DNA of 64,000 nt, taken from NCBI GenBank assembly GCA_938082375.1, contig CALKCJ010000015.1, forward strand, positions 62,001-126,000, given 5' to 3'. The notes under the pieces were generated by a model. It searched no databases, was not told the origin of the DNA, and saw nothing but the letters and a program-made list of their open reading frames with translations. Positions 9,576 to 54,525 of the stretch are shown one piece after another (position 1 is the stretch's first letter; every line of letters begins with the position of its first letter). The stretch is from an uncultured Thermomicrobiaceae bacterium. Its GTDB lineage: Bacteria; Chloroflexota; Chloroflexia; Thermomicrobiales; Thermomicrobiaceae. The position numbers and the translations under genes are program-made.

Positions 9576-10058
9576 TCAAGAGTCGGGTGCCAAGCGTTCC
9601 AACCTCTGCCGGTACCAAGACACGAGAACTTCTTCGGCGACCACCTGCACCGCGGCCGCTGCCGGGATCGCGAGTACCGCGCCGGTGATCCCAAGCAGTT
9701 CCGCTCCCGCGAGGACTGCCACGAAAACTAGTACCGGGTCGAGATCGAGCTGCGACCCCATTCGATGAATGGGGAGATTACAAGCCCCTTGAGGTCCTGG
9801 ATCAGCACCGAACTGGCGACGGTCAGCGCCAGCGCGATCCACCGATCCGTCGCCGCGAGGATAAACAGCGGGACACGTGCCAGCCAGGTGCCTACCCGCG
9901 GGATGATCTCGCACACCGCTACGATGACGGCGAGCAGCGGGAAGGAGACACCGATCAGCCACAGCGTTCGTAGGTCAGCGCGCCCACGATCAGCATCACC
10001 GCCAGCTTGGCACCCACGTACTGCCTCAGCCAAAGCCAGATGCCGGTCAACGCATTTC
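9576..10058 (-). pseudogene. Broken AI-2E-family permease (C-terminal remnant)
   Basis: Three frames of the minus strand must be joined to recover one protein. 10058-9980 reads LTGIWLWLRQYVGAKLAVML, then a second frame gives GVSFPLLAVIVAVCEIIPRVG and IQDLKGLVISPF, and a third gives PVLVFVAVLAGAELLGITGA and VQVVAEEVLVSWYR. Order and motifs match the C-terminal third of AI-2E/PerM family permeases (about 350 residues), including the conserved IIPRVG and P-V-L segments. The N-terminal two thirds are absent and at least two frameshifts are present. Expression as a functional transporter is not credible unless sequencing errors explain both shifts. Confidence 0.75.
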
Positions 10059-10356
10059 GGGTCTACTTGCGGTATTCGCCAGGAGTCAGCTCCTGGACGG
10101 TACGCAGTCTGGTTCCTGGGCCTGGCCGAGTAGGCACCGCATCACGGTCGGTGATGGGGGTCGGGAGTCGCCTCGCTCATCATGGGGTGGGCGCCCTCTC
10201 CTCGTCCACAACGCCGGGGGTTCGGACTCGCTCGACTGTCTACACGATTGTCGCAGACAGGCGCACGCAGGCCAACGCTCCGGGAGCACACTTCGGTGAG
10301 CGTGGACACGGAGTCCGCGCCGCTTCTGTCGGCGCGGCAGATTTCGATTGGGGGAC
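10059..10356. other. Gene-free stretch before the structured RNA
   Basis: No protein-like frame is seen on either strand. A hairpin CCGCGCCG/CGGCGCGG at about 10316-10338 followed by a weak T-rich tract may end leftover transcription from the left. Otherwise the segment appears to be noncoding debris next to the broken permease. Confidence 0.4.
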
Positions 10357-10385
10357 TTGACACGGAGACAAAGATGTGGTGTACT
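10357..10385 (+). promoter_or_regulatory. Promoter of the 10.4-kb structured RNA
   Basis: TTGACA (10357-10362) and TGTACT (10380-10385) are separated by 17 bp. The expected start at about 10391 coincides with the 5' arm of the closing stem of the RNA described next. Confidence 0.6.
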
Positions 10386-10389
10386 TCAA

Positions 10390-10587
10390 GTGCGGTCCCG
10401 AGGAGTTGAGCTCGGACCGGCGAAGAGATCCGACTCGACCGGGAAGCCGGAAGAGTTGACCGTAGACCCGAAAGGGAAAGCGGCACCGGTACAGGTCAGC
10501 TCCGCCTGGCGAAAGCCAGAGGGGAGGTGAACTCCGAGGCCGGCGGAGAAGCCGGGATGAGTGAGGCCCGTCGGGGCCGCACTTTTT
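10390..10587 (+). ncRNA. Unclassified structured noncoding RNA, about 198 nt
   Basis: The segment has every boundary expected of a small RNA gene: a consensus promoter directly upstream, and a closing stem joining the first bases (GTGCGGTCCC, 10390-10399) to the last (GGGGCCGCAC, 10573-10582), followed by TTTTT. A local GGCCC/GGGCC hairpin at the 3' end can also act as terminator. Inside are several compact hairpins, two capped by GAAA tetraloops (CCC-GAAA-GGG and CTGGC-GAAA-GCCAG), plus CCGG-GAAG-CCGG and CCGGC-GGAGAA-GCCGG. None of the hallmarks I know for RNase P RNA, tmRNA, SRP RNA or common riboswitches is present. Frames through it are short and unlike proteins. A 6S-like role cannot be excluded from length alone. 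Confidence 0.6.
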
Positions 10588-10895
10588 CCCTCTTCCGACC
10601 AATCCGGCGGAAACCCGTCAGGCCAGCCCACCGAGCGAGTCGGAATCATCGCGGTCGGTACTCACCTCGCCGCCTCCTCTTGACAGGGATGGGGCTGATC
10701 CACTCTCAAATCGTAACCCCAGGGGGACTCGCCGATCGTTCCCGATAGTTAAGCAATCGTTATAGCATGATCAGAAAACCCGATAGCCTCGAACATTCGA
10801 TCCCTTGCATCACAGAGGCTGCTGCGCTATCCTACGCTGCTAACCGCTGCCCGCTCGGGAAGCCCGCGCAACGGCGCGCGAGCGAAGGAGGAGCT

Positions 10896-11125
10896 ATGGA
10901 CGCAGCGCTGCACTCGAGCGAGTTGGGGTGTCCCCTTTCATTACGCCTGTTAATGCCTGGGCGATCGACGGCGATCCCCTTCCACCACCCCAAAGCCTCC
11001 CCCATGCCCAGTACCCCCGGTAGGCGCGACGTTTGGCGCTGCAGTGGCGCCAGGACTACCTGGGGCCGGCTGAGGCGCTAGCTTCCAGACCGGCCGAGCT
11101 CACCGACCGGCAAGCCACACACTGA
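10896..11125 (+). pseudogene. Degraded small gene of unknown family
   Basis: An ATG at 10896 has a strong AAGGAGGAG site 4 bp upstream and starts MDAALHSSELG. After about 12 codons protein-like sequence continues only in another frame (FITPVNAWAIDGDPLPPPQ), then meets a TAG, and continues in that frame as RRLALQWRQDYLGPAEALAS to a TGA at 11123-11125. The composite looks like a real protein of about 75 residues that has suffered one frameshift and one stop. I do not recognise the family. Codon use after the shift is typical of the genome. Confidence 0.35.
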
Positions 11126-11373
11126 ACTAGCGGGCGCAACCGCCCCCACTCCCGTGTAGAGCACCGATCCTGAGCATCTCCACGGAGACCTAGCACGGGC
11201 CAGCGTCGGGCCGAGGGACAGGAGGATACGGAAAGCCTCCAAAGCGAAGAAGGACGGTAGCGGAACCGGGCAAAGGAGCGAACACAGGGGTAACCGAGGC
11301 TGACCCACGGGCAGCGCAGCCCGCGACGGAGCGGAGCTGCAACCTCGACGACGAGGGAAGGGAGTTGACCGCG
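11126..11373 (+). promoter_or_regulatory. Purine-rich leader region of gltB
   Basis: The 248 bp before gltB contain no open frame of interest. The final 150 bases are rich in GGA and AAG runs and include short dyads (for example GCAGC/GCTGC near 11310-11345). I compared it by eye with the glutamine (glnA) riboswitch because of a GGACGGTAGCGG stretch, but the pairing strand is absent, so no riboswitch is called. A GGGAG ribosome site precedes the ATG at 11374. Confidence 0.3.
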
Positions 11374-14300
11374 ATGCAGCGATCACACTGGGACGAACGC
11401 CTGGCACAGGCGCCGCTCTACCGACCGGAGTACGAGCATGACGCCTGCGGAACCGGCTTCGTGGCCGACCTCTCCGGCAGCCCCAGCCACCAGATCGTCC
11501 GGTACGCCCTCGAGGCGGTCGTCAATCTGACCCACCGGGGCGCGGTCGACGCGGATGCAAAGACCGGCGACGGGGCTGGGATCACCATTCAGCTCCCGCG
11601 CCGGCTGCTGGCCCGCGAACTGACGCGTCTGACTGGCCTCCAGCCCGATCCCACCGACCTGGCGGCCGGGCTGGTCTTCCTGCCGGCCCACGATCCGGCA
11701 GCCGCCGAAGCCTGCCAGGCTGCGCTCAACCAGGCCCTCGCTGCCCAGGGGACGCCGGCCCTGGCCTGGCGCCAGGTGCCAGTGCGGCCTGAGGTGCTCG
11801 GGCACAAGGCGCGCGAGACGATGCCGGCTATCTGGCAGGTGATCGCCGCCCGGCCGAGCGGGCTCGATACCCTCGAGTTCGAGCGGCGGCTCTACCTCGC
11901 CCGCCGGGTCGCCGAGCGCTTCGCAAAGGAGCACGGCATCGCCAGCTTCTTTGTCCCCTCGCTCTCCTGTCGCACGCTGGTCTACAAGGGGTTGTTCGTC
12001 GCCCGCGACCTGGGTGAGTTCTACCTGGATCTGCGCGATCCTGAGCTGGAGAGCGCGCTCGCGCTCTTCCACCAGCGCTACAGCACCAATACCTTCCCGA
12101 CCTGGCAACTCGCCCAACCCTTCCGCCGACTGGCCCACAACGGCGAGATCAACACGCTGCAGGGCAACCGTAACTGGATGCGCGCCCGCGAGCCAGAGCT
12201 CGCGTCCGAGGTCTGGGGCAAGCGGATCGCTAAGCTGCTGCCGCTCATCGACCCCGAGGGCAGCGACTCGATGAGCCTCGACAACGTCCTCGAGCTGATC
12301 GAACTGTCTGGACGTGACATCCTCCACGCCGTCGCCATGCTGATCCCCGAGGCCTGGGAGAACATGCCGGCGACGGACACGGACGTGCGCGGCTTCTACG
12401 CCTACCACGCCTGCTTGATGGAACCCTGGGACGGGCCGGCCGCGATCGCGTTCACCGATGGGCGGATCGCTGGCGCCGTGCTCGACCGCAACGGCTTGCG
12501 GCCGGCCCGCTACTCCGTCACTGACGACGGGCTGGTGGTGCTGGCCAGCGAGACCGGCGTCATCGACCTCAGCGGCCGGCAGGTTGTCGAGCGCGGGCGC
12601 CTGGGGCCGGGGCAGATGCTGGCAGTCGATGTCGAGACCGGGCAGCTCTGGCACAACGAGGAGATCAAGGCCCGGCTCGCTGCCCGGCAGCCCTACCGCG
12701 CGTGGGTACAATCCGGCTTCCACCGGCTCTCCGCGGCCCGATCCCACGCCAACGGGCACGAGCCCGACGCGAGCGGCCAGCTCACCCGCCAGATCGCCTT
12801 CGGCTTCAGCGCTGAGGACCTGCGGCTGGTGATCCACCCCATGGCAGCCGAAGCCAAGGAGCCGCTCTGGTCGATGGGCGACGACACGCCGCTCGCCGTA
12901 CTCTCCCGCTTCCCGCGTCCGCTGGCCCACTTCTTCCGCCAGCGCTTCGCCCAGGTCACCAACCCACCCATCGACCCGCTGCGCGAGAAGCTGGTGATGT
13001 CGCTCGACGTCTACCTTGGATCGCGCAAGAGCATGCTGGCCGAGACGCCGGAGCACGCCCGACTGTTGCATTTGCCCAGCCCGGTGCTGCTCGAGCCCGA
13101 CTTCGCCGCGCTCCAGGCACTGGACGCCCCGGAGCTCCGCCCGGTCACGCTTGCGGCTGTGTTCCCAGTTGCCGCCGGGCCAGGCGGGCTCACGGCCGCG
13201 CTCGAGGCGCTGCTCGAGCAGGCCGAGCGGGCGATCGACGAGGGCGCCACGATCTTGGTCCTGAGCGACCGCGGGGTCGACGCCGAGCACGCGCCCATCC
13301 CGATGCCGCTGGCGGTCGGTGGGGTACACCACCACCTGATCCGCGTCGGCAAGCGTATGCGTGCCTCCATCGTCTGCGACACCGGCGATAGCTGGGATGT
13401 CCACCAGGCGGCCGTGCTGATCGGCTACGGCGCCAGCGCGGTCCATCCGTACCTGGCGCTGGAGGCCGCCCGCGCCCTGGCCGGCACGCGCGGCTGCGAG
13501 GAGCTCAGCGCTGATGACTTGGCCGCCCGTTACAAGAAGTCGCTCGACGCTGGCCTGTTGAAGGTGATGTCCAAAATGGGCATCTCCACATTGGCCAGCT
13601 ACCAGGGTGCCCAGCTCTTCGAGATTATTGGACTGGCCCCAAAGGTAGTCGAGCGTTTCTTCACCGGCACGCCGGCCCGCCTGGCCGGGCTCGATCTCGC
13701 CGGCATCGCCGAGCGGGTGTTGCAGCGCCACCGCGAGGCCTACTCTGGTGACGCGACCAAGCTGCCCGACTACGGCCTGGTGCGCTTCCGCAAGGACGGC
13801 GAGTACCACGCCTTCAGCCCCACCACCGTACGGGCGCTCCAGGAGGTCGCCGAAAGCGGCGATCGGGATCGCTACCGCAACTTCGTCCGCCTGGTCGAAG
13901 AACGTGAGCCAGCGGCCCTGCGTGACCTGCTGGTCTTCAAGCCCACCACGCCGATCCCGCTTGCGGAGGTGGAGCCAGCCGAGGAGATCCGCCGCCGCTT
14001 CGTGGTCACGGCGATGTCGCTGGGCGCGCTCAGCCCCGAGGCGTTTCGCACCCTCGCGATCGCCATGAACCGGATCGGCGCCCGCAGCAACAGTGGCGAG
14101 GGTGGCGAGGATCCCGACTGGTACTATGAGCCGGGCCCGGACATCCCGCACAGCCGGATCAAGCAGGTGGCCTCGGGCCGTTTCGGCGTCACCACCGAGT
14201 ACCTGACGCGGGCCGACGAATTGGAGATCAAGATCGCCCAAGGCTCCAAGCCCGGGGAGGGCGGGCAGCTTCCGGCACACAAGGTGACCGCGCTGATCGC

Positions 14301-15906
14301 CCGGCTGCGCCACGCCGTGCCCGGCATCTCGCTGATCTCGCCGCCCCCGCACCACGACATCTACAGCATCGAAGACCTGGCCCAGCTCATTTACGATCTC
14401 AAGCAGGTGAACCCACGGGCGCGCGTCGGTGTCAAGCTGGTGGCCGAGGCCGGAGTGGGCACGATCGCCGCGGGCGTCGCCAAGGCCCACGCTGACTACA
14501 TCCTGATCAGCGGCCACGCTGGCGGCACCGGCGCTTCGCCGCTCTCGTCGATCAAGTACGCCGGTGTCCCGTGGGAGCTGGGCCTGGCTGAGACCCAGCA
14601 GACACTGGTGCTCAACGACCTGCGCAGCCGGGTGCGGCTGCGCACCGACGGCGGTCTCCAGACCGCCCGCGACGTCATCATCGCCGCGCTCCTCGGCGCC
14701 GAGGAGTTCGGCTTTGGCACCGCCGCGCTGGTCGCGATCGGCTGCGACATGGCCCGGCAGTGCCACCTGAATAGCTGCCCCACCGGCATCGCCACCCAGC
14801 GCGAAGACCTGCGCGCCCGCTTCAAGGGCACGCCCGAGCAGGTGATCAACTTCTTCACCCAGCTCGCGGAGGACGTCCGCCGCTACCTCGCGCAGCTCGG
14901 CGCCCGCTGCCTGGACGAGATCGTCGGCCGGGTCGAGCTACTGGAGCAGGCGAAGTGCAGCAATGGGCCGGGCGCCGCACTCGACCTCTCGCCGATCCTG
15001 GCTGCGCCGGGCGGGCCAGCTACCCCGCGGCGCTGCCTCCAGGAGCGGAACGACTTTGACGATGTCAGTGGCCCACCGCTCGATGAGCAGTTCCTCGAGC
15101 AGGCTCTGCCGGCGCTCGAGCAGGGCCGGCCGGTACAGATCACGGCCCCGGTGCGGAACCACCACCGGGCGGTTGGCGCTCGGCTGGCTGGCGCGCTCAG
15201 CCTGCGCTACGGCCGCGAGCGGCCGCCGGCCGGGCTGGTCGAGCTGCAGGTGACCGGGCAGGCCGGTCAGAGCTTCGGCGCCTGGTGCACCCATGGCCTG
15301 CGGCTGATCCTCGACGGTGAGGCCAATGACTACGTGGGCAAGGGAATGGCCGGCGGCGAGATCATCGTCCGGCCGATCGAGGAGCCAGTGGACGAGTCAC
15401 GCCCGCACGTGATCGTTGGCAACACGGTGCTCTACGGGGCGACCGGCGGCGAGCTCTATGTGGCCGGCCAGGCCGGCGAGCGCTTCGCGGTCCGCAACTC
15501 CGGCGCAGTCGCCGTCGTCGAGGGTGTCGGCGACCATGGGTGCGAGTACATGACCGCAGGAACAGTGGTCGTCCTCGGCGAGACCGGGCGTAACTTCGCC
15601 TCCGGCATGACCAACGGCGTCGCCTACGTGCTCGACCAGCATGGCCACTTCCCCGCTCGGTGCAACCCCCAGTACGTCGGGCTGGAGCGCGTGACCGAAC
15701 CTGAAGACGCCGAGCGGCTGCGCACACTGATCGAGCGGCACGTCGCCTGGACCGGCAGCCGGCGGGGGCAGCAGATCCTGGCCCGGTGGGAAGACTACCT
15801 GCCGCGCTTCTGGAAGGTCGTGCCGCACCCGGCGATTGAGGCACCGGCCAAGGAACCCGTGCGCCGCGCGCGCCAGGCCATGGCCACAGCGCCAGCCGCC
15901 GACTGA
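11374..15906 (+). CDS. gltB: Glutamate synthase large subunit
   Basis: A 1510-residue enzyme that makes two glutamates from glutamine and 2-oxoglutarate in ammonia assimilation. The N-terminal Ntn amidotransferase begins near ACGTGFVADL, whose Cys becomes the catalytic residue after propeptide removal. The central FMN/2-oxoglutarate synthase region (about residues 850-1180) contains GEGGEDPDWYYEPG, GEGGQLPAHKVT and SGHAGGTGASP, and the 3Fe-4S cysteines lie in CDMARQCHLNSCPTG. The C-terminal beta-helix GXGXG-type repeats close the protein. Length is normal for the family. I use ATG 11374, with GGGAG 10 nt upstream, not the TTG at 11365. No small subunit (gltD) lies beside it, so reductant delivery is by another locus or ferredoxin. 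PII and AmtB genes follow on the opposite strand. Confidence 0.97.
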   Translation: MQRSHWDERLAQAPLYRPEYEHDACGTGFVADLSGSPSHQIVRYALEAVVNLTHRGAVDADAKTGDGAGITIQLPRRLLARELTRLTGLQPDPTDLAAGLVFLPAHDPAAAEACQAALNQALAAQGTPALAWRQVPVRPEVLGHKARETMPAIWQVIAARPSGLDTLEFERRLYLARRVAERFAKEHGIASFFVPSLSCRTLVYKGLFVARDLGEFYLDLRDPELESALALFHQRYSTNTFPTWQLAQPFRRLAHNGEINTLQGNRNWMRAREPELASEVWGKRIAKLLPLIDPEGSDSMSLDNVLELIELSGRDILHAVAMLIPEAWENMPATDTDVRGFYAYHACLMEPWDGPAAIAFTDGRIAGAVLDRNGLRPARYSVTDDGLVVLASETGVIDLSGRQVVERGRLGPGQMLAVDVETGQLWHNEEIKARLAARQPYRAWVQSGFHRLSAARSHANGHEPDASGQLTRQIAFGFSAEDLRLVIHPMAAEAKEPLWSMGDDTPLAVLSRFPRPLAHFFRQRFAQVTNPPIDPLREKLVMSLDVYLGSRKSMLAETPEHARLLHLPSPVLLEPDFAALQALDAPELRPVTLAAVFPVAAGPGGLTAALEALLEQAERAIDEGATILVLSDRGVDAEHAPIPMPLAVGGVHHHLIRVGKRMRASIVCDTGDSWDVHQAAVLIGYGASAVHPYLALEAARALAGTRGCEELSADDLAARYKKSLDAGLLKVMSKMGISTLASYQGAQLFEIIGLAPKVVERFFTGTPARLAGLDLAGIAERVLQRHREAYSGDATKLPDYGLVRFRKDGEYHAFSPTTVRALQEVAESGDRDRYRNFVRLVEEREPAALRDLLVFKPTTPIPLAEVEPAEEIRRRFVVTAMSLGALSPEAFRTLAIAMNRIGARSNSGEGGEDPDWYYEPGPDIPHSRIKQVASGRFGVTTEYLTRADELEIKIAQGSKPGEGGQLPAHKVTALIARLRHAVPGISLISPPPHHDIYSIEDLAQLIYDLKQVNPRARVGVKLVAEAGVGTIAAGVAKAHADYILISGHAGGTGASPLSSIKYAGVPWELGLAETQQTLVLNDLRSRVRLRTDGGLQTARDVIIAALLGAEEFGFGTAALVAIGCDMARQCHLNSCPTGIATQREDLRARFKGTPEQVINFFTQLAEDVRRYLAQLGARCLDEIVGRVELLEQAKCSNGPGAALDLSPILAAPGGPATPRRCLQERNDFDDVSGPPLDEQFLEQALPALEQGRPVQITAPVRNHHRAVGARLAGALSLRYGRERPPAGLVELQVTGQAGQSFGAWCTHGLRLILDGEANDYVGKGMAGGEIIVRPIEEPVDESRPHVIVGNTVLYGATGGELYVAGQAGERFAVRNSGAVAVVEGVGDHGCEYMTAGTVVVLGETGRNFASGMTNGVAYVLDQHGHFPARCNPQYVGLERVTEPEDAERLRTLIERHVAWTGSRRGQQILARWEDYLPRFWKVVPHPAIEAPAKEPVRRARQAMATAPAAD

Positions 15907-22231: not shown

Positions 22232-22336
22232 GCGCTCATCCAGAGTGGTGGAGGGAACGGCCCGAAGAAGCCCGGCAACCAGCGCGCATGCGCCAGGTGC
22301 CAATGCCGGCGGAGCGAGGCTCCGCACGATGAGCGC
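22232..22336 (+). ncRNA. SAM-I (S-box) riboswitch
   Basis: Closing stem P1 is formed by GCGCTCATC (22232-22240) and GATGAGCGC (22328-22336). Between them are the SAM-I core sequences GGAGGGAACGGCCCGAAGAAGC, with CCCGGCAACC following directly (about 22251-22280), and GGTGCCAATGCC (22296-22307). The GATGAG closing strand is diagnostic. Binding of S-adenosylmethionine stabilises P1 and favours the terminator at 22350-22375, shutting off metX when methionine is abundant. Confidence 0.93.
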
Positions 22337-50772: not shown

Positions 50773-53700
50773 CTACTTCAGCTTGAAGTAGGCCGAAACG
50801 GACGAGCCGTCTCGCAAAGCCACGGTCACCAGGAAGCACTTGCTGGCACCCCTCTTCGGCGTCTGCCAGTTGTAGATGAACTGGCCGGCCGTCGTGTCGT
50901 AGCGCAGGCTGGTGCCACCTGTGGGGCTAGTCTCGACCTCAGCCTCCATCGCTTCTCCTTTGTCACAAGTTACGGGCGTGGCCTGCAGCGGCTGCACGAC
51001 GACGTCGGTGTCAGTTACCTCGGTGTTCCCCTTGAACACCTCGAACTTCAGTGGTACCGTCGAGCCCGCCTTGACCACGTTGTAGACCAGCGTACTCCCG
51101 CTCGACATGTCCACCGGCGCGTAGAAGCCGCGCAGCGTCCAGGAGAGCACGGTGTAGTGGATCGTGATCGACGCCACGTTGCCCGCGTTGTCGGTGGCCT
51201 GCGCCGTCAACGTGTACGCGCCGACCGCTGTCCCGTACCCGCTCACCGTGCACCCGCCGTTCACCCCTGAGAGGGCGTCAGTGGCCGAGCAGGTGGGGGC
51301 AGGCGGCACGTCACCCCAGTAGAACGACTGACCCTCGCTGATACTTGCGCCAGGCCACTGGAGCGTGATCGCCGGCGGCGTGCGGTCGATCTTGACCTCG
51401 GCCGACTTCGCCACTTCGATGTTGTCGGCGTTGTCGACACTCCAGAAGTTCAGGGTGTGGATGCCCTCGTCGCTGACCGTGACCGTCGTGCCGCTCTGGA
51501 TCACTCCGCCGTCGAGCTGCCAGTAGGTCTGCGCCACGCCGGACAGGTTGTCGGTCGCGGGCAGGTTGACTGTGACGCTAGCGGCGTTCGTCCATCCCGG
51601 CGGAGCGTCGGAACTCGTCGTCGGTGGTTTCAGGTCGATGTTGATCCCATCCACCGTGGCGGAGCTGGTGTTGCCAGCGTTGTCCGTCGCCGTCCCCGTC
51701 ACTGACTGGCCCGCGCCCTCGCTCGAGAGGGTGACCGGTTCGGTGCAGCTCGCAATCCCGGACTCATCATCCTGACAATAGAACTCCACAGTGACCGGGG
51801 TGTTGTTCCAACCATTAGTGTTGGGATGCGGAAACCTGAAGCCGGTGATCTGTGGCGGAATGTTATCGATCTTGAGTGTAATCGCGTTGTCGGCCGCCGA
51901 GCTGTCCTCGGCATTGTCGGCCTTGTCCACGCTCCAGAACCGGATCTCGTGCACACCGCCGAGGCTGAACGTGAACGGGCCGGTGTATACCTGCGGTGAG
52001 CCGCCGTCCACGGCGTAGTAGGTCGCAGCGATGCCGGAAAGGTTATCCATCGCGTTCAGGGTGACGGTCACCGGTCCGGCATACCAACCGCTCGGCAGCG
52101 GAGCCGGTACCGAGGCGGTCGTGCTCGGCGGCGTGCGATCGATCTTGATCCCGCTTACCGTGACGTTCGTAGTGTTACCGGCCAGGTCGCTGACCGAGGC
52201 GCTGGCCGAAAGGTCATCGCCCTCGCCGGTGATAGTTGAATCGCCGGGCACCGTACTTTGGTCGATCCCGGAGAGCGCGTCGCTCGCCGTCCAGTGGATG
52301 GTCACGTCCGTGTTGTACCAGCCGTAGGAGTTAGCCGGCGTGGTCGGCGCGCCGATCAGTGTGGGCGGCGTCTTGTCGATGTTGATGTTGTTCACCGTCG
52401 CTGAGGCGACGTTATCGGCGTAATCGACCGCCGTGCCGATGACGGACTGGCCAGCCCCTTCAGTGCTCACCGTAAGCGGGCCAGGGCAGCTCGCAATACC
52501 CGAGAGCGCATCGAAGCAGGTGAAGCTGACGACCACGTCGGCGTTGTACCAGCCGTGCGCGTTCGGCGTGCGGTCTGGGCTGGCCGAGATCGCCGGTGGC
52601 GTCATGTCGATGTTGACCGTCGCCGTGTCCTGGGCCTTGTTGCCGGCATTGTCCACCGCCTCGCCGGTGACGTGCTGGTTCGCCCCTTCTGTGCTCACCG
52701 TCACTGGGCTAGAGCAGCTCGCGATGCCGGAGAGGTTGTCCGTGCAGATGAACGTCACCGTGACTGCGGTGTTGTTCCAGCCGTTCGCGTTCGGGTTCGG
52801 CGTGAGCGTGTGCACGATGCTTGGCGGCGTCAGGTCGATCTTGACCTCGGCCGTGTTCGTCGCTTCGATGTTCCCGGCGTTGTCGACGCTCCAGAAGCTC
52901 AGCGTATGGTTGCCCTCCGTCGTTATCGAAACCGAGGTGCCGCTCTGTACCGGCCCGCCGTCGAGCTGCCAGTAGGTCTGCGCCACGCCGGACAGGTTGT
53001 CCGATGCGCTCAGCGTCAGGCTCACCGGCATATTCGTCCAGCCTGACGGTACCTTCGCCGTCGTGGTGGGCGGTGTGCGGTCGATGTTGACACTCAGGCT
53101 GTTGGCCGTCGTCGTGTTGCCCGCCTTGTCGCTCACGCTGGCGGTCGCGAACAGCCCGGTGCCCTCGCCGGTGATCACCGAATCGCCAGGTACCATGCTC
53201 GGGTCGATCCCGGAGAGTGCGTCGCTCGCCGCCCAGTGGATAGTGACGTCGCCGTTGTACCAGCCCTTGGCGTTCGGCGGGGTCGTCGGCGCACCACTAA
53301 GCGTCGGTGGCGTCTTGTCGATGTTGATACCGCTTACCGTCGTCAAGGCACCATTGTCGGCGTTGTCCACCGCCGTGCCGATGACGGACTGGTGTGCGCC
53401 CTCCGTGCTGAGCACCTGGGTGCCGGTGCAGCTCCTAATACCGGAGAGCGTATCGGAGCAGGTGAAGCTCACCGTCACGTCGCTGTTGTTCCAACCAAAG
53501 CTGTTCGGAGCGGGCGAGCGGCTGCCGCTGATCGTCGGCTGTGTCTTGTCAAGCTTGACCGTCACCGTTCCGGTTCCGGTGTTGCCGACGCGGTCGGTTG
53601 CAGTCGCTGAGCGGGTCACGCCGCTCGTCTCGGTCGTGACCGTGTCGGTCGCTGGGGACGGCCCGCTGGCCACGCCGGAGCCGCTATCGGTTGCCGACCA

Positions 53701-54216
53701 GGTGATGGTGACGTCGCTGTTGTTCCAGCCGGCGGCGTTGGGAGCAGGTGAGAGGGTACCAGTGACCAAGGGCGGGGTGTTATCGGCGACGTACGAGGCC
53801 ATGTCTTGCCCTAACTGTTGGTTGCAGCCTTTGTTGCGGTAGGCGGTCACGGTGACGGTGCGCGTGCCGTCGCCGCTCCCGGCCATGAAGCTAAAGCTCC
53901 AGCTCGACTTGTCCGTGTTGGATGTCTGAGTGGCCGAATGGGCACCAGTCACCACGACGCAGCGGGTGTCGTTGCTGGTGGTGACGCTAAGTGTCAGCGG
54001 GGCACCCTGCTTAGCGTAGAGCGTGCCGCCGACCATTGCCGTCCCGGCACCGCCAGTGAAGCTGGCCGAGACGACCGAAGCGGCTGCCGCTGCCGGCGCC
54101 CCGGCCGGGGCCAGCGCAGGCGCCAGCAAGCCGAGCGCGAGCAGGGTCACCACCAGCAGGTTCAGGCCATACGACCGGAACGTGACAGGCTGGATTCTCA
54201 CTCGCCTATCGATCAT
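50773..54216 (-). CDS. Large secreted protein with about eleven Ig-like repeats and PxKF end
   Basis: An 1147-residue exported protein. After a signal peptide (LLVVTLLALGLLAPALAPA) comes a tandem array of beta-sandwich repeats of 75-105 residues, each starting near a (V/I)(K/N)IDxTPPxxxG linker and containing GWxNxxVTV and SGIAxC or DNLSGVAQTYW segments. About eleven linkers are visible. The C-terminus (about 1050-1147) matches the PxKF-type domain with STLVYNVVKAGSTVPLKFEVF and a final SVSAYFKLK. Such proteins build stalks for adhesion or S-layer attachment. The ATG at 54216 follows GAGGGGG. The repeats alternate two types, one with and one without a Cys pair. Confidence 0.85.
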   Translation of the reverse strand: MIDRRVRIQPVTFRSYGLNLLVVTLLALGLLAPALAPAGAPAAAAASVVSASFTGGAGTAMVGGTLYAKQGAPLTLSVTTSNDTRCVVVTGAHSATQTSNTDKSSWSFSFMAGSGDGTRTVTVTAYRNKGCNQQLGQDMASYVADNTPPLVTGTLSPAPNAAGWNNSDVTITWSATDSGSGVASGPSPATDTVTTETSGVTRSATATDRVGNTGTGTVTVKLDKTQPTISGSRSPAPNSFGWNNSDVTVSFTCSDTLSGIRSCTGTQVLSTEGAHQSVIGTAVDNADNGALTTVSGINIDKTPPTLSGAPTTPPNAKGWYNGDVTIHWAASDALSGIDPSMVPGDSVITGEGTGLFATASVSDKAGNTTTANSLSVNIDRTPPTTTAKVPSGWTNMPVSLTLSASDNLSGVAQTYWQLDGGPVQSGTSVSITTEGNHTLSFWSVDNAGNIEATNTAEVKIDLTPPSIVHTLTPNPNANGWNNTAVTVTFICTDNLSGIASCSSPVTVSTEGANQHVTGEAVDNAGNKAQDTATVNIDMTPPAISASPDRTPNAHGWYNADVVVSFTCFDALSGIASCPGPLTVSTEGAGQSVIGTAVDYADNVASATVNNINIDKTPPTLIGAPTTPANSYGWYNTDVTIHWTASDALSGIDQSTVPGDSTITGEGDDLSASASVSDLAGNTTNVTVSGIKIDRTPPSTTASVPAPLPSGWYAGPVTVTLNAMDNLSGIAATYYAVDGGSPQVYTGPFTFSLGGVHEIRFWSVDKADNAEDSSAADNAITLKIDNIPPQITGFRFPHPNTNGWNNTPVTVEFYCQDDESGIASCTEPVTLSSEGAGQSVTGTATDNAGNTSSATVDGINIDLKPPTTSSDAPPGWTNAASVTVNLPATDNLSGVAQTYWQLDGGVIQSGTTVTVSDEGIHTLNFWSVDNADNIEVAKSAEVKIDRTPPAITLQWPGASISEGQSFYWGDVPPAPTCSATDALSGVNGGCTVSGYGTAVGAYTLTAQATDNAGNVASITIHYTVLSWTLRGFYAPVDMSSGSTLVYNVVKAGSTVPLKFEVFKGNTEVTDTDVVVQPLQATPVTCDKGEAMEAEVETSPTGGTSLRYDTTAGQFIYNWQTPKRGASKCFLVTVALRDGSSVSAYFKLK

Positions 54217-54374
54217 CGAAACGTCCCCCTCTTCTTGAGCAGGAGCAGCAGTACCCACAGCGATGCCGATACACCGATCAGATGCGGGATCTGCGCATAG
54301 GAGCAAAGGTCCTCACGTCCCGTGCGCCCTCCCTCGCCAGCTCCTCACCCAGAAGCCACTGCCAGAAAAGAAAT
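54217..54374. other. Upstream region of the repeat protein
   Basis: Holds the ribosome site (GAGGGGG) of the minus-strand repeat-protein gene and presumably its promoter. No clear -35/-10 pair is visible and no gene is seen. Together with the adjacent terminator, the gap to the next gene is about 309 bp. Confidence 0.35.
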
Positions 54375-54399
54375 CCCGGCCGCTGCATCAGCGGCCGGG
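54375..54399 (-). terminator. Intrinsic terminator of the receiver-like gene
   Basis: CCCGGCCGCTG pairs with CAGCGGCCGGG in an 11-bp stem with a 3-nt loop. On the minus strand it is followed by ATTTCTTTTCT. It ends transcripts from the small receiver-like gene. Confidence 0.85.
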
Positions 54400-54525
54400 T
54401 GCGCCACTGGCTCAGCGCGGGCCAGGCGCCCAGGCTACGGCCCGCGCGTCATCGCCTCCGCGTCTTCTGTCCACATACTAGTCGTTCAGCTCGCTGGCGC
54501 AATCCCGCAAATGAGCTACCGGACG

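Follow-up and report, generated by a model that had tools for sequence, protein, structure and literature searches.

The window, by which we mean the whole 64,000-nucleotide stretch of DNA analysed here, derives from an uncultured Thermomicrobiaceae bacterium. It contains an intergenic region that separates gltB (glutamate synthase, 11365-15906) from a disrupted gene for an AI-2E permease, the latter on the opposite strand. The permease gene (AI-2E family, PF01594; window 9576-10133, minus strand) is split between frames, and an intact copy of 386 aa lies at the same place in the related genome G002. Between the two genes lies a predicted structured RNA, hereafter copy A, with the following features:

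10357-10362 (+): -35 promoter element, TTGACA
10380-10385 (+): -10 promoter element, TGTACT, after a 17-nt spacer
10390-10587 (+): structured non-coding RNA of ~195 nt (copy A), identified by its fold and by covariance-model matches across the order
10390-10401 (+): closing helix P1, 5' strand (GUGCGGUCCCGA)
10402-10421 (+): inner closing helix (GAGU) and P2 (CCGGC, 10417-10421), 5' side; P2 is backed by covariation
10429-10456 (+): 5' strand of the J helix (UCCG, 10429-10432, pairing with 10544-10547) and hairpin P4 (10433-10456, GAAG loop), from the minimum free energy (MFE) fold
10457-10485 (+): hairpin P5, with a purine internal loop and a GAAA cap, from the MFE fold; the loop drifts between GAAA and GCAA within the genus
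10486-10543 (+): hairpin P6, GAAA cap, from the MFE fold; includes the Shine-Dalgarno (SD)-like segment GGGGAGGUGA at 10521-10530, a motif kept in a subset of copies
10551-10569 (+): P2 (GCCGG, 10551-10555) and inner closing helix, 3' side, from P2 covariation and the fold
10571-10582 (+): closing helix P1, 3' strand (UCGGGGCCGCAC), with the same covariation support as the 5' strand
10583-10587 (+): terminal U-run (U5)

Promoter, ends and fold of copy A

An earlier note on this DNA had proposed that a consensus promoter precedes a stand-alone RNA of about 198 nt. The promoter TTGACA-N17-TGTACT is indeed present at that place, matching the consensus at 6/6 positions of the -35 element and 4/6 of the -10 element. 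A generic promoter scanner that requires A at position 2 of the -10 element did not list it, though it is conserved in homologues. Among the 52 copies with readable upstream sequence, the -35 element reads TTGACA in 51 and TTGACG in one, where 7 of the 52 had been collected with a pattern demanding TTGACA and the rest had not. The first T of the -10 element is kept in 50/52 copies and the last T in 49/52, and the closing helix stands at a near-fixed distance from the promoter. The spacer measures 17-18 nt in all 41 tabulated copies. In copy A the predicted transcription start, 7 nt past the -10 element, falls at 10390-10393, so that the 5' end of the transcript would be flush with the closing helix.

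The MFE of copy A is -113.0 kcal/mol, as against -77.3 ± 4.2 kcal/mol in 200 dinucleotide shuffles, none of which was as stable (z = -8.4). Similarly, z is below -3 in 54 of the 55 copies of the order. A stem joining the two ends, which the earlier note had put at 10 bp, is present but longer, with 12 bp (10390-10401 with 10571-10582). It runs directly into the U5 that had likewise been pointed out. In most of the 41 tabulated copies the closing helix is likewise followed by a U-rich tail, and P1 and the U-run together form a probable intrinsic terminator. Towards the interior, P1 continues as a purine-looped rod (10402-10421 with 10551-10569) that ends in P2. Beyond P2, a UCCG/CGGA helix in the MFE structure of copy A encloses three hairpins capped, in order, by GAAG, GAAA and GAAA, which bears out the GAAA-capped hairpins noticed before and adds the GAAG loop. 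A hairpin equivalent to P4 is found in the folds of other genera. In family f1 the apical loops drift mainly among GNRA tetraloops, which makes a compact tertiary structure of the RNA plausible.

Open reading frames on the minus strand across the copy A region gave no Pfam match, and copies from congeners differ by single-base insertions and deletions; copy A is therefore non-coding. With a promoter and a putative terminator of its own, a conserved fold with compensatory changes and no coding potential, copy A agrees with the earlier proposal and has, to judge from its sequence, the make-up of a stand-alone gene for a structured RNA.

Other candidate RNA elements occur in the window as well. 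The long leader of gltB (~10840-11365, plus strand) has a translation that is partly common to congeners ('ALHSSELG'), looks non-coding, and is possibly a separate cis-regulatory element, without an Rfam match. A SAM riboswitch lies at 22233-22335 (plus strand, 85 bits). A c-di-GMP-II riboswitch, unexpected in this phylum, lies at 54384-54468 (minus strand, 60.8 bits), just upstream of a 1177-aa open reading frame for a secreted repeat protein (50773-54306).

Distribution and covariation in the Thermomicrobiales

Copy A, which the earlier note described from this sequence alone, is one member of a multi-copy family spread through its order. A blastn search recovered the RNA at 91-94% identity in the three other genomes of its genus, Thermalbibacter (g1; G001 is T. 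longus CFH 74404), and, split into two pieces, in a second genus. Between Thermalbibacter genomes the identity is 91-95% for the RNA itself, compared with 44-83% for the 400 bp on each side. A covariance model built from five sequences matched 18 of the 21 genomes of the family, with second copies in most genera, and a model of 27 sequences extended the matches to other families of the order. With the final model, built from 41 sequences, the RNA was found in 36 of the 158 class genomes. Every one of these belongs to the Thermomicrobiales, and the 97 class genomes outside this order yielded none. Carriers thus make up 36 of the 61 Thermomicrobiales genomes and 22 of the 28 high-quality ones (≥90% complete, ≤5% contaminated). 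The E-values of these models are rough. Some copies may also have been lost to the strict filters of the large searches, and absence from some Thermomicrobiales genomes is thus not firm. A pattern that joined the -35 box to the two strands of the closing stem was also run against the genomes of 84,980 species of bacteria and archaea. It returned 21 stretches, of which 20 were from Thermomicrobiales or were copies already placed there and one was a false positive. Hence, the RNA appears confined to the Thermomicrobiales, an order whose members are mostly heat-loving.

Several matches were discarded. A match in Gemmatimonadota (L093) had no U-run and an unpaired outer closing stem, while L076, L078 and L079 lacked both closing stem and promoter and resembled coding sequence. 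A mobile or phage origin was rejected, as phage and plasmid records gave no match and no viral contig carried the promoter-plus-RNA pattern.

The RNA usually occurs at two paralogous loci per genome. The source genome is among the many with two copies, and its second copy lies at G000:C23:1371-1564. Carriers include the culturable strains Thermalbibacter longus and Thermomicrobium sp. CFH 73360 (genus g6), and genome G004 is probably Sphaerobacter thermophilus.

The pairing of the closing helix is under clear selection. Over 41 copies, 98.3% of the cells in the alignment of this helix hold standard pairs and 50 cells show two-sided compensatory changes, a level reached by none of 500 shuffles; controls in which the helix was slid along the sequence were only 29-47% paired. 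P2 shows two-sided changes in 4 of its 5 pairs (27 copies), and even between congeners CCGGC/GCCGG is replaced by CCAGC/GCUGG. The interior of the RNA differs greatly between clades, and its alignment across clades is uncertain, so that conclusions on the interior were drawn within clades. Two-sided changes affect 22 of the 43 pairs predicted for clade f3 (18 copies) and 16 of the 42 pairs for genera g2 and g4. Two internal hairpins of the f3 RNAs have freely covarying stems, and both carry the loop GCGGGG, invariant over the 18 copies; this repeated loop is seen at L111, L112, L113, L117-L119, L121 and other f3 loci. Both the conservation and the covariation that the earlier note had suggested looking for in related genomes are therefore strong.

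Inside this covarying closing helix lies a nearly invariant core, CCGANGAG/CUCGUCGG, in which CCGA-N-GAG faces CUC-G-UCGG. The position N opposite G forms G.G in 29 copies, U.G in 7 and C-G in 5, and is never A. Since the core is conserved beyond what pairing requires, we infer that it is recognized by a partner. Part of the sequence conservation of P1 could also serve termination or RNA stability.

A short hairpin RNA of 87-91 nt in Thermomicrobium and g4 genomes, which ends in a U-rich tail, resembles the longer RNA in its closing motif (CCCCGACGAUUCGAGG...GGAUCGUCGGGG) and is possibly a second small-RNA family. Its loci are:

L063 1501-1587, L074 1501-1591 and L065 1501-1588 (-): short hairpin RNA

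Known RNA classes and regulatory alternatives

The earlier note saw no signature of a known RNA class, and the database searches concur. Rfam 15 gave nothing at the gathering score at the copy A locus, and permissive scans of copy A and 16 divergent homologues gave weak matches far below the cutoff. In the open-access literature that we searched, we found no account of an RNA of this kind from the order. Together with the covariation and the distribution described above, this makes it almost certain that the RNA is a genuine family, new to Rfam.

One alternative is a diverged house-keeping RNA, whether 6S RNA, SRP RNA, RNase P RNA or Y RNA. A length of ~200 nt, paired ends and one or two copies per genome recall 6S RNA, and a search for 6S RNA detected none in g1, g3 and g6. 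A replacement of 6S RNA was suggested by this gap in the own genus of copy A, but was rejected, because Sphaerobacter-type and f3 carriers have 6S RNA at separate loci. Such loci are present in 42 of the 61 genomes of the order, including the carriers G004, G041 and G054, and the 6S covariance model (RF00013) matched neither the copy A locus nor the 16 homologues. Moreover, the fold is branched and lacks the 6S bubble. The source genome also has its own RNase P RNA (G000:C24:10011-10363, E 7e-30, a little short of the gathering score), with no Rfam match to this class at the copy A locus, and its own SRP RNA (G000:C15:32161-32260, 75.4 bits). ARAGORN found no tmRNA within the window. The Ro-binding helix of Y RNAs carries GGUCCGA, and GGUCCCGA in the closing helix resembles it. 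This resemblance was only a lead, as Ro/TROVE protein (PF05731) was found in 0/21 genomes of the family and in 4/61 of the order. A house-keeping origin is consequently most improbable.

The genomic neighbours vary. In g1 the copies adjoin gltB or a glnA pair, and in g3 one copy adjoins a glnA pair. Elsewhere the neighbours are a thrC-like gene (g6 copy A), rsmI (g2 and g4), pyruvate kinase (g2 copy b) and a TypA-like GTPase (one f2 genome); gltB was named from Pfam matches and the other genes from their translations. The location upstream of gltB or glnA in g1 and g3, on the same strand, together with the U-run directly after the closing helix, might suggest a riboswitch-like leader or attenuator in which the closing helix would act as a regulated terminator ahead of the next gene. 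Against this stands the lack of a fixed same-strand downstream gene: the RNA persists while its neighbours change between genera, and the downstream gene is convergent in g2, g4, g6 and g3 copy A. A cis leader, of gltB for example, is thereby excluded for most copies, and we consider it very unlikely as a general explanation.

An alternative explanation might be a base-pairing RNA that acts in trans on mRNAs, perhaps those of nitrogen assimilation. This would be in line with a stand-alone gene with promoter and terminator, and with copies near gltB in g1 and directly upstream of the glnA pair in g1 and g3. However, nearly all of the RNA is paired, a conserved long single-stranded seed is missing, and the neighbours in most other genera are unrelated. 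An Hfq-dependent mode of action was rejected, as Hfq (PF17209) had no above-cutoff match in any of the 21 family genomes. Overall, base pairing with mRNAs seems unlikely.

The SD-like segment GGGGAGGUGA raises the question of whether the RNA interacts with the ribosome or with 16S rRNA. The g1 and g3 A copies and both g6 copies (g1A, g3A, g6A, g6B) keep a run of 10-11 nt complementary to the anti-SD tail of 16S rRNA (G-U pairs allowed) at an equivalent place, whereas other clades have 4-8 nt and the mean over all copies, 7.4, compares with 7.0 in shuffles. The segment is also paired in the predicted fold, which, with the clade comparison, makes a 16S-directed role quite improbable. Translation from this motif was rejected, because no start codon follows at a proper spacing.

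Finally, the many hairpins might point to a sponge for CsrA of the CsrB/RsmY type, all the more so because CsrA is encoded in 13 of the 21 family genomes, including the source genome. Yet GGA motifs are not generally enriched compared with shuffles and, outside g6, are missing from the apical loops altogether. Furthermore, genus g4 keeps the RNA in 5/5 genomes but has no CsrA match, and two of these genomes are 98% complete. We therefore give a CsrA sponge very little credence.

Possible function and comparison with known RNAs

The explanation that we favour, although we regard it as no more than an even call, is that the RNA acts in trans as the RNA component of a ribonucleoprotein with a regulatory or scaffold task. 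Transcription from its own strong sigma-70-type promoter would yield a presumably abundant molecule, closed by a single helix of its 5' and 3' ends, and this helix, with the U-run, would probably double as terminator. The invariant core of the helix could then be the docking site for a protein of this lineage. The multi-hairpin body, rebuilt from clade to clade with repeated modules, may offer sites at which a second partner binds or may sequester that partner, in a manner akin to 6S RNA or protein-sponge RNAs, presumably with a regulatory outcome. Some points argue against the ribonucleoprotein reading. The interior diverges between clades, so that one shared partner of the body is only putative. 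In addition, the presence of glnA beside one copy in two genera, and of gltB in one genus, could mean a narrower role in nitrogen metabolism.

A bolder version of the ribonucleoprotein reading, which we consider doubtful, is a lineage-specific RNA machine. Here an order-wide particle, made up of a dedicated protein seated on the invariant closing helix and of hairpin bodies that differ by clade, would serve a regulatory or scaffolding function without known counterpart. Such particles would possibly assemble into multimers, given the two identical GCGGGG loops in f3 copies.

Large structured RNAs are uncommon in bacteria, and several that are known have proved to serve functions that nobody had expected. 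The Thermomicrobiales RNA family satisfies the usual comparative standards for such RNAs (covariation, promoter, terminator, orthologues and paralogues), and its occurrence in culturable strains makes its function testable. An invariant, blunt closing helix that probably doubles as terminator, combined with a freely rebuilt body and duplicated in most genera, may offer a clean case for studying the evolution of an RNA scaffold whose docking site stays fixed.

Among known RNAs, 6S RNA has much in common with the Thermomicrobiales RNA, as besides size, paired ends and copy number it has its own promoter and acts in trans, as proposed here. In contrast, 6S RNA is a rod with a central bubble, whereas the Thermomicrobiales RNA has a multi-branched body and an invariant closing-helix sequence and co-resides with a separate 6S gene. 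Bacterial Y RNAs likewise combine a conserved sequence in the closing helix with a variable remainder. Their Ro site has a bulge, whereas the closing helix described here is fully paired and all 21 family genomes lack a TROVE/Ro protein. Chloroflexi-1 RNA (RF01698), also a candidate structured RNA from this phylum, differs in that neither its model nor any other in Rfam matches the Thermomicrobiales RNA; it was reported only from Chloroflexus aggregans (PMC2864571).

The raiA motif or ModT is an orphan structured bacterial RNA (PMC11706538), to which the Thermomicrobiales RNA may also be compared.

Other orphan, stand-alone structured RNAs of bacteria are OLE, ROOL and GOLLD. Like these and ModT, the Thermomicrobiales RNA is conserved, is predicted to be independently transcribed, has an elaborate fold and lies among neighbours that are uninformative on its function. 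It differs from all four in being unrelated by Rfam scans, restricted to one order, smaller, and present as two paralogues per genome.
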